Assembly: GCA_027036015.1 (NCBI GenBank)
Contig: JALVTH010000079.1
Coordinates: forward strand, 1 to 61,650
Direction: 5' to 3'
Length of the DNA stretch: 61,650 nucleotides
DNA from: Campylobacteraceae bacterium
GTDB taxonomy: Bacteria; Campylobacterota; Campylobacteria; Campylobacterales; Sulfurovaceae
Part shown: one piece after another, positions 2,842 through 37,949 of the stretch
How the letters are laid out: each line of letters starts with the position of its first letter
Numbering within the stretch: the stretch's first letter is position 1
Program-made: the position numbers and the translations under genes
Notes under the pieces: model-generated
Seen by the model: only the letters and a program-made list of their open reading frames with translations
What the model was told of the DNA's origin: nothing
The model's database searches: none

Positions 2842-3149
2842 CAAAGTCCTGCTTCATCAAGCTCTTTAAATTTAAAAGCTTCAATAAGCTCTTCAATGCT
2901 TTCTTGATCTTTGCGTCTAACTAAAACCATATAACCTTCATTTAAAAAATCTAAATAGTTTTCAAATTTATTTTCTAAAATAACAAAATCAAGCCAATCA
3001 ACTCCACTTTCTTGCCAAGAGGGAGCAAAATGAATATTTTTAATAACACCTTCATCAAATTCAATAATTGCCCAAAAAGAGGCTTCGTTCATTGGAGCTA
3101 TTTGAGAATTAATTCCATCTTCACTTTTAACTGGAATTGCTATATACAT
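2841..3149 (-). CDS. NifX/NifB-like (dinitrogenase Fe-Mo cofactor family) small protein
   Basis: A 102-residue protein beginning [19 protein letters not shown], which resembles the opening of the ribonuclease-H-like dinitrogenase Fe-Mo cofactor domain (NifX/NifY/NafY). The family binds iron-sulfur or Mo cofactor precursors in some members, but no nitrogenase gene is near and there is no conserved cysteine pair. The gene sits between luxS (10-nt overlap) and mnmD (TGATG overlap), so it is certainly co-translated with them. Its ribosome-binding site is AAGGAG. Function in this operon is unknown; the family assignment is moderate. Confidence 0.7.
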
Positions 3150-29400: not shown

Positions 29401-29477
29401 ACCCTCCCTTCTCTTCTTACTTCCTACTTCTTACTTCTTACTTCATACTTTTAACTTTTAACTCTTAACTTTTAACT
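29401..29477 (-). repeat. AGTNNNN heptamer array A (11 units)
   Basis: On the minus strand 77 nt divide into exactly eleven 7-nt units: AGTTAAA, AGTTAAG, AGTTAAA, AGTTAAA, AGTATGA, AGTAAGA, AGTAAGA, AGTAGGA, AGTAAGA, AGAGAAG, GGAGGGT. The first unit begins with the last sense codon of mtn (AGT) and contains its TAA stop. The array ends about 16 nt before the promoter of the TtcA-like gene. Confidence 0.85.
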
Positions 29478-31504: not shown

Positions 31505-31723
31505 TTACTTTTCCTTTGCACACTCATCACAAAAAATTTTACCCTTTTTAATGATTGCCTCTTTTTTAGTGATGTAAACATGACATTTACTGCACTCAAG
31601 CAAAGTATTATCATCTTCACTATTTACTTTATTATGTTTTTTTTTAGGCAATGCTATTTCACCGCCTAAAAGTTTATATAAACCATAAACAATCAGCAAA
31701 ATCAAAAGAAGTTTAAGAATCAT
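31505..31723 (-). CDS. small membrane-anchored zinc-ribbon protein (PP0621-like)
   Basis: A 72-residue protein with an N-terminal membrane helix (residues 2-20) and a four-cysteine zinc-ribbon: CSKC at about 49-52 and CDEC near the C-terminus. This matches the PP0621 family in plan. Role unknown. It starts within the 3' end of rsmG by 11 nt and directly precedes the alpha/beta gene, so it is translationally tied to both. Confidence 0.75.
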   Translation of the reverse strand: MILKLLLILLIVYGLYKLLGGEIALPKKKHNKVNSEDDNTLLECSKCHVYITKKEAIIKKGKIFCDECAKEK

Positions 31724-32309
31724 CTTGCCCTTTTATATAAAGATAATTTCGTTTTTCCTTTTGAACTATATCATAATTTAGCTTGCCTTTTAGAGAATCT
31801 AATTCTCTTAATAAAGAGCTTCCTTTATAAAAAAGATAGTGTGTATTTTTATTTGCAAGATGCGAAGTTAAACTTAAAAGCATTTTTGCATTCGTTACGG
31901 CTCTTGAAGTGATGAGATTATATGGTTCATCTTGAAGTTGCTCTACCCTATTTTTAAATACTTTTACATTTTTTAAATCTAAATTTGCAATCATTAATTT
32001 CAAAAAAGAAACCCTTTTTTGTAAAGGTTCAGTTAGTGTTACAAAAGTTCCCATCCAAGCAATTGCTAATATAAGTCCAGGAAATCCAGCCCCAGTTCCA
32101 ACGTCTAAAAGCCGTTTAGGCTTTTGCACAAAAGTAATTGGAATTAAGCTATCTACAATGTTACGAATTACCTCATCTTCACTTCTAAGTGCTGAAATAT
32201 TATGCACTCTATTATACCAAAGTAGTTTTTTTGTAAAGCTATCTAACTTTTCAAGTTGCTCTTTTTCTAAAAAAATATTTTCTTGTTCTAAGGCTTCTTG
32301 CAATTTCAC
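31713..32309 (-). CDS. rsmG: 16S rRNA (guanine-527-N7) methyltransferase
   Basis: RsmG (GidB) methylates G527 of 16S rRNA; loss gives low-level streptomycin resistance in other bacteria. The SAM-binding LLDVGTGAGFPGLILA and LTEPLQKRVSFLK are clear, and ITSRAVTNAKMLL fits the family. The start is most likely GTG at 32309 (198 residues), behind AAAGGA; an upstream GTG at 32333 would place this site inside the gene and the protein inside the repeat array. The array lies directly upstream. Confidence 0.9.
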   Translation of the reverse strand: MKLQEALEQENIFLEKEQLEKLDSFTKKLLWYNRVHNISALRSEDEVIRNIVDSLIPITFVQKPKRLLDVGTGAGFPGLILAIAWMGTFVTLTEPLQKRVSFLKLMIANLDLKNVKVFKNRVEQLQDEPYNLITSRAVTNAKMLLSLTSHLANKNTHYLFYKGSSLLRELDSLKGKLNYDIVQKEKRNYLYIKGQDDS

Positions 32310-32331
32310 ACTCTTTCCTTTCTCTCCCACC

Positions 32332-32408
32332 ACTTACTCATCACTCCCCACTCTCCACTAATCACTAATCACTAATTACTAATCACTAATTACTTTTTAC
32401 TATTCACT
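32332..32408 (-). repeat. AGTNNNN heptamer array B (11 units)
   Basis: On the minus strand 77 nt read as eleven units all beginning AGT: AGTGAAT, AGTAAAA, AGTAATT, AGTGATT, AGTAATT, AGTGATT, AGTGATT, AGTGGAG, AGTGGGG, AGTGATG, AGTAAGT, then decay to GGTGGGA and GAGAAAG at the rsmG ribosome-binding site. It begins five nt after the ribA stop codon. Confidence 0.88.
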
Positions 32409-32413
32409 CATTC

Positions 32414-32980
32414 CTAAATCAAATGCCCCATTTTCTCTTTTTTTACTTGTAAATACTTTTTATTATTTTTATTTGGTTCAATAACTAAAGGCACTCTCTT
32501 AACTACTTCAAAATCATTTAATGCTTCGATTTTTTTAGGATTATTGGTTAAAAGACGCAATTTTTTTATCTTAAAATGCTCTAAAATCTTTTTTACAATA
32601 TCATAGGTTCGCTCATCAGCCGCAAAACCTAATTGATGATTGGCTTCTATTGTATCAAATCCCTTATCTTGCAGTGCATAAGCATTCACTTTATTAAAAA
32701 GTCCTATGTTTCTTCCTTCTTGACGATGATAAATTAAAACTCCTCCTTCTTTGCCAATAAGCTCCAAAGCTTTTTGCAACTGCTCTCCACAATCACACTT
32801 GCGTGAACCCAACGCATCTCCAGTAAGGCACTCAGAATGAATTCTTACAAGCGGTATTTTGGGGAGAGGTTCAGTAAAAAGTACTAAGTGCTCTTTATTA
32901 CCCTCTTTAAATGCTTGCATTTTAAAATCACCAAATTTTGTTGGTAAATTTGCCACTTGAGAAATCTCTTGCTCTTGCAA
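32414..32980 (-). CDS. ribA: GTP cyclohydrolase II
   Basis: RibA opens GTP at the first step of riboflavin synthesis. The 188-residue single-domain protein has the zinc site in [16 protein letters not shown] (three cysteines) and the catalytic [14 protein letters not shown], then [14 protein letters not shown], all standard. The likely start is TTG at 32980, with an AAAGG site nine to ten bases upstream. It has no fused DHBP synthase (RibB) domain. Its stop is followed after five bases by heptamer array B, and it is divergent from ccoI. Confidence 0.94.
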
Positions 32981-37194: not shown

Positions 37195-37905
37195 ATGACC
37201 ATTCTTCCAGCAATCGATTTAAAAGATGGTAAAGCAGTTCGTCTAACAAAAGGCATAATGGAAAGTGCTAAAATTTATAGCACTGAGCCATGGGAATTAG
37301 CCAAACATTTTGAAGAGCTTGGGAGCAAATGGCTTCACTTAGTCGATTTAAATGGAGCATTTGCTGGCGAGCCAAAAAATTTAGAGCAAATTAAAAAAAT
37401 TCGCAAAAACACCAACTTAAAGCTTGAACTTGGTGGTGGAATTCGTGATGAAGAGACAATAAAGATGTATCTTGATTTAGGAATTGATAGAGTAATTTTA
37501 GGCTCAATTGCTGTTAAAAATCCTCATTTTGTAAAAGAAATGGCCAAAAAATATCCAATAGTTGTTGGAATTGATGCAATCAATGGCTATGTTGCAGTTG
37601 AGGGATGGGCAAAAGTTAGTAAAATGAAAGCTGTTGATTTGGCAAAAGAGTTTGCAAATGTGGGAGTTGAAGCAATTATTTGCACTGATGTAAATCGTGA
37701 TGGGATGCTTAGTGGCATTAATATTGAATTTACTAAAGCTATAAAAGATGCAAGCGGCCTTGAGACAATTGCAAGCGGAGGCTTAAAAGATATCGATGAT
37801 ATTAAAGCTTTGCTTGAAGCTGGTATTGATGGAGTTATTGTTGGTAAAGCTTTTTATGAAGGCACTTTGGATTTAAAAGAGGCGTTTGAGCTGGTAAATG
37901 AGTAA
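37195..37905 (+). CDS. hisA: ProFAR isomerase HisA
   Basis: HisA isomerises phosphoribosylformimino-AICAR-phosphate in histidine synthesis. The 236-residue barrel has [17 protein letters not shown] with the first catalytic Asp, [25 protein letters not shown] with the second Asp, and phosphate-binding [10 protein letters not shown] and [11 protein letters not shown]. It follows hisH in the run. Its TAA stop lies within the first unit of heptamer array C. Confidence 0.96.
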
Positions 37906-37949
37906 AGAGTACTGAGTAAAGAGTAATGAGTAATTAGTGATTAGTAAAA
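37901..37949 (+). repeat. AGTNNNN heptamer array C (7 units)
   Basis: Forty-nine nt read as seven units, all beginning AGT: AGTAAAG, AGTACTG, AGTAAAG, AGTAATG, AGTAATT, AGTGATT, AGTAAAA, followed by AAGGATG, the prmA ribosome-binding site. The hisA TAA is inside the first unit. It shares the 19-mer AGTAATTAGTGATTAGTAA with array B at 32 kb. Confidence 0.85.

Follow-up and report, generated by a model that had tools for sequence, protein, structure and literature searches.

Between ribA and rsmG, within the 61,650-nt stretch of DNA analysed here (the window), lies a tandem series of AGT-cored heptamers, and its position raises the question of whether the series serves the downstream gene or belongs to a class of repeats with its own mode of growth and placement. 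The features concerned are collected in Table 1.

Table 1. Genes, putative ribosome-binding site and heptamer arrays considered in the window.
Feature	Coordinates	Strand	Remarks
ribA, GTP cyclohydrolase II type ORF, 188 aa	32414..32980	-	stop TAG 32414-32416; RibA-type relatives
rsmG, 16S rRNA methyltransferase type ORF	31713..32309	-	likely start GTG 32309
Probable rsmG ribosome-binding site GAGAAAGGA	32315..32323	-	read from sequence
Heptamer array B, 11 AGT-phased 7-nt units	32332..32408	-	sense strand of ribA and rsmG
Heptamer array A, 7 AGT-phased units	37901..37949	+	upstream stop TAA (37903-37905) inside first unit
Third heptamer array, 9 AGT-phased units (AGTTAAA/AGTAAGA)	29415..29477	-	upstream stop inside first unit

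The array at the ribA–rsmG junction

Array B comprises 11 consecutive in-phase AGTNNNN heptamers, exactly 77 nt in all, in the order AGTGAAT, AGTAAAA, AGTAATT, AGTGATT, AGTAATT, AGTGATT, AGTGATT, AGTGGAG, AGTGGGG, AGTGATG and AGTAAGT. In-phase AGT runs in 30 order-2 Markov shuffles of the window reached a maximum of four, seen once, so the 11 units of array B are not a product of chance; a scan of periods 4–12 found above-threshold regions (n = 3) at period 7 only. Five bases (GAATG) separate the ribA stop codon from the first AGT, and the stop TAG, as read from the sequence, shares the 7-nt register with the TAGT of the array. At the opposite end, the phase fades at GAGAAAGGA. Reading of the minus strand together with the shuffles therefore bears out an earlier, sequence-only reading of this DNA, which had described 11 AGT-phased units on the coding strand, beginning five bases past the ribA stop and fading at the rsmG ribosome site.

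Both flanking genes have recognizable relatives. RibA-type proteins share up to 74% identity with the ribA ORF, and the C-terminus is conserved as far as the stop. For rsmG, the mechanically called ORF starts at 32333, a GTG at the end of array B, but this codon and the in-frame GTG at 32330 are unlikely starts; initiation is likely at the GTG behind GAGAAAGGA, with which the first aligned RsmG residues of relatives agree. The suggestion that GTG codons inside the array are false starts is thereby upheld, and serves as a warning that rsmG starts in this window should not be called within array B.

The two genes overlap or directly adjoin each other in most relatives. The same-genus genomes G002, G003, G007 and G008 have ribA–rsmG gaps of -16 to +8 nt and no array, G004 and G006 (also of the same genus) carry AGT-phased units at this junction, and the same-genus G010 and G001 carry a different heptamer, TTTTGAA. 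The sister species G004 and G006 differ by exactly 14 nt, or two whole units, with matching flanks, and the TTTTGAA arrays of G010 and G001 show a difference of 20 nt; unit number is thus variable between relatives, as judged from sister species with one genome per species. These differences, together with the relatives that have no gap, indicate that the junction array changes mainly by whole units and is not a conserved element. Accordingly, of the expectation that a 7-nt phase would be found in the same gap of close relatives, the recurrence of the phase stands (AGT in two genomes, TTTTGAA in two others), whereas conservation of the array does not.

Placement and polarity across genomes

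The genome containing the window (G000; 1.69 Mb in 79 contigs) holds about 20 AGT-phased arrays, between 4 and 15 units long and with shared unit dialects, most of which begin at or within the stop codon of the upstream gene and on the same strand. Neither of two proposals on array length is supported: array A, thought to equal array B, has seven units by the strict criterion and the third window array nine, and a limit on array length likewise finds no support. Related genomes also carry many heptamer arrays, although their distribution is patchy (65/117 genomes of the family and 34/150 of the order). A reversed-pattern control was set aside as the null in the AGT searches, since AGTGATT arrays, with their phased TGA, are hits of the reversed pattern too. 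One dialect recurs at numerous unrelated stops, which suggests that arrays spread from locus to locus instead of arising separately at each.

Several arrays merit separate mention. The longest in G000 (L149; G000:C46, locus 2951-3077), with 15 units, lies between divergent genes directly past GGTATAAT and just after TATAAT, as if a transcript started within it, and is an exception to the stop-edge placement. Two AGTGTTG/AGTGCTG arrays (L146; G000:C21:39752 and 40241) run antisense within a 467-aa ORF. Genomes G199 and G220 each have identical AGT-phased arrays at three loci with constant spacing, perhaps beside multicopy operons.

Placement relative to genes was evaluated in a set made up of four same-genus genomes and genus g10. 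Of the arrays in co-directional gaps, 36 were in sense and 5 in antisense orientation (p = 8e-7). Where the slack was 60 nt or more, every sense array (23 of 23) was nearer the upstream stop, and in 14 of the 17 convergent cases the array was nearer its own sense stop. These counts bear directly on control of rsmG by the array, whether as a 5′ untranslated element, a ribosome standby site, a means of translational coupling or a copy-number rheostat. Such control would suit the end of array B at the rsmG ribosome site, the difference in unit number between species and the start-codon position of the Beggiatoaceae TAACTGA repeats (PMC4679880), but several relatives have no array at the junction, and same-genus arrays follow the upstream stop rather than the downstream start, even when the next gene is 150–300 nt away or convergent. 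Two arrays of G000 itself (L141 and L145) come before convergent genes, so that a downstream start is not required for an array. Because arrays track the upstream stop despite large downstream slack, regulation of rsmG is rejected as a general role, and the effect on rsmG envisaged in the sequence-only reading is unsupported; for array B in particular, we regard it as highly improbable.

Stop edges dominate in the host genus, but the general rule is wider. In a 600-kb sample of the complete genome G045, picked regardless of arrays, the G-rich strand had its 5′ end closer to the gene edge than its 3′ end in 25 of 30 intergenic arrays. Of the 25 arrays within 30 nt of a gene edge, 15 were at starts and 10 at stops, indicating that the rule applies to the edges of genes at either end. 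In 144/172 arrays, drawn as eight sets from three families, the G-rich strand starts at the gene edge and points away from the gene (p = 5e-20), a count in which ORFs were called mechanically, strand was assigned by G over C, every set except that of G045 was selected by AGT pattern, and arrays of one genome are not fully independent. In the same sets, the polarity holds for 91 of the 105 arrays in gaps of at least 150 nt, and 42 of 51 pairs of adjacent arrays sharing a gap are in facing orientation. This polarity counts against plain neutral slippage, which predicts random orientation. Members of a facing pair resemble each other no more than arrays paired at random do, and therefore are not inverted copies of each other; inverted duplication is out as the origin of facing pairs.

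The stop-edge placement in G000 also invites a translational explanation, in which the array is a safety strip that supplies stops in all frames right after the gene's own stop and so catches readthrough and frameshifted ribosomes. The arrays do begin at the stop codon, and all 14 G000 arrays of at least 42 nt have three-frame stops on the sense strand (5/14 on the complement), a property seldom matched by column-permuted arrays (P = 0.004). However, G005, G006, G004 and G045 show no enrichment over column permutation, and more than half of the edge-adjacent arrays of G045 lie at starts and are antisense. With significance confined to G000, the all-frame stop strip was dropped, and we judge it very unlikely.

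Growth of the arrays and their association with hairpins

In 26 arrays of at least seven units, agreement at the four variable positions is higher between neighbours than between distant units (0.76 at lag 1 versus 0.65 at lag 7), a contrast reached by none of 2000 shuffles of unit order and found equally with G000 alone. The greater likeness of neighbours implies array growth by stepwise tandem duplication rather than from a fixed external template. Within G000, identity between adjacent units is 0.85–0.96 at the AGT positions compared to 0.59–0.75 at the other four, and this lower variation is not predicted by neutral drift within the unit. Insofar as G045 favours other units (e.g. GAGGAAT), AGT represents a dialect and not a universal core.

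These observations bear on a telomere-like process, whereby breaks in intergenic DNA would be extended at their 3′ ends with G-rich heptamers by an enzyme, leaving arrays that face each other. The polarity, the facing pairs and the lack of special likeness between pair members all agree with such addition, but the local likeness of adjacent units points to self-copying instead of a fixed template. Moreover, reverse transcriptase (RVT_1) is absent from the array-rich G000, G005, G006, G045 and G082–G084, the Y1 transposase from G082, G083 and G085, and Ku from all 117 genomes. Reverse transcriptase, Y1 (REP) transposase and Ku were each rejected as the maker of arrays, being missing in array-rich genomes, and telomere-like addition is the explanation to which we give least credence.

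A role for RNA structure was likewise dropped. Fold z-scores of -4.0, -2.0 and +0.7 for the three window arrays show that no RNA fold is common to them, and a search of Rfam 15 with the array gave no covariance-model match up to E = 1. Array B contains no palindrome, and folding of 83 nt gave only a weak, AU-rich structure (-9.8 kcal/mol).

Taken together, array B is probably a lineage-wide heptanucleotide simple-sequence repeat that grew by slippage at a tolerated edge of ribA, and not a regulator of rsmG. An AGT-cored 7-nt unit would have become fixed at the ribA 3′ edge, and whole units, singly or several at a time, would then have been duplicated in tandem over and over, through polymerase slippage or unequal exchange. 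The array may have been kept where insertion harms neither gene, in the space separating the ribA stop from the rsmG ribosome site, and we propose that it persists since this is the only spot here that tolerates an insertion that is not a multiple of three. It displays the fixed polarity of its class, with the G-rich 5′ end at the edge and pointing away from the gene, and need not serve rsmG. The array and its siblings in the genome, their polarity, the change of length by units between sister species and the signature of duplication are observed; slippage as the process and tolerance as the reason for placement are what we infer.

Hairpins accompany many arrays in related genomes. In five same-genus genomes, the hairpin GGAAACATTGCTTYGCAATG (allowing up to 2 mismatches) has heptamer-like sequence directly upstream in 22/22 copies, of which 18 have at least three in-phase AGT and one has 17 units. 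At the loci of this hairpin (L377-L398), a T-run was also observed along with preceding AGTGAAT-type arrays of about 1 to 17 units, and the whole resembles an intrinsic terminator in which heptamers form the spacer. The complete genome G027 carries an ~80-nt two-hairpin element in 23 places (L354-L376; e.g. L325, L326, L317), most of which have AGTGRRN-type arrays to one side of the element and, to the other, GGNCATT-type arrays in inverted orientation, so that the two types face inwards; the element was not found in the four same-genus genomes searched, nor in G000 or G045. Palindromes resembling the CGTC and GTAG types follow arrays in G004–G006. At the loci listed for G004 and G006 (L193-L202, L274-L292), intergenic heptamer arrays are succeeded by GTCATTCTGAGCG...CAGAATGAC (CGTC-type) and GTAGGGG... 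(GTAG-type) palindromes. The arrays in relatives are variable-length tails 5′ of dispersed hairpins.

More broadly, the heptamer arrays of the order might be variable-number tails of dispersed array-plus-hairpin modules, placed at gene edges with fixed polarity and with a dialect specific to each hairpin family, among which array B would be a solo tail. We hold this possible but, on balance, unlikely; if true, array B would belong to a bacterial repeat element that combines a growing 7-nt stutter with a hairpin. That the ribA–rsmG array itself arose in this manner, from a module spreading as a unit into gene edges whose hairpin was lost or never present, is quite unlikely in our estimation. 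Both the hairpin GGAAACATTGCTTYGCAATG, in its regular company of upstream heptamers, and the array-flanked element of G027 favour such an origin. Against it, no hairpin follows array B, and the only G000 array that carries GGAAACATTGCTTYGCAATG sits in a block (L141; G000:C1:2500-8600) that is 84–88% identical to its counterpart in G005 (L392; G005:C132), although the RsmG proteins of the two genomes share only 59% identity. This block was probably acquired by horizontal transfer.

Comparison with known repeat systems

Cyanobacterial STRRs resemble the present arrays in that a seven-nt unit is favoured and slippage has been proposed. The same likeness extends to the long simple repeats surveyed by Mrazek et al., among which, as summarised in PMC4679880, 7-nt units are the most abundant class in most bacterial genomes, slippage again being proposed; AGT cores and facing pairs are not described in that summary.

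The GTAG- and CGTC-tagged REP palindromes, both reported in Sulfurovum NBC37-1, are situated near the 3′ end of the preceding ORF, whose stop codon they may provide (PMC3733652), but unlike these REP and REPIN elements array B is neither palindromic nor accompanied by a hairpin. The TAACTGA direct repeats of Beggiatoaceae, in which one exact unit occurs in 2–6 copies at start codons (MacGregor 2015; PMC4679880), are also intergenic heptamers with fixed gene orientation, interrupted by related heptamers. In contrast, the present arrays are stop-edge and built of degenerate units; array B does not read TAACTGA on the coding strand but AGTRATT and variants, and whereas TAACTGA-type repeats lie upstream of a start and replace the ribosome site, the rsmG ribosome site is present and arrays of the genus are anchored at stops.

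The intergenic heptamer repeats of Xanthomonas and Nostoc, GGGAATC and GGGGA(C/T)T, for which no function was found (Rehm et al. 2015; PMC4692102), provide a close parallel: they too form genome-dispersed tandem arrays whose length varies among related species, and the stop-edge, coding-strand placement of the Xanthomonas repeats is already published (PMC4692102). They differ in phylum, in their preference for 4 units (versus 4–17 here), and in core. With an AGT core and almost no G-runs, the present arrays are not of the quadruplex type; a quadruplex would call for G-tracts of at least three per unit, and AGTGGGG is the sole unit of array B with such a run. Array B otherwise agrees with the dispersed intergenic heptanucleotide repeats of the Rehm and Mrazek type, having exact 7-nt tandem units, many intergenic copies in the genome and a position on the coding strand no more than 50 nt from the upstream stop. 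It is a real heptanucleotide array of a known, poorly understood kind, and neither a TAACTGA nor a quadruplex repeat.

Among the papers searched, none described heptamer arrays in Campylobacterota. Three features look new, no earlier description of them having been found: the facing-pair rule, the array-plus-hairpin modules and the use of an AGT dialect in this order. The facing pairs and the hairpins distinguish a role in translation, for which only stops should matter, from a process acting on DNA at the edges of genes, and so bring within reach of test the questions of why the unit is seven, why the arrays are intergenic and why they are oriented. Polarity and modules are the part worth pursuing, and array B is not to be read as a control element of rsmG.
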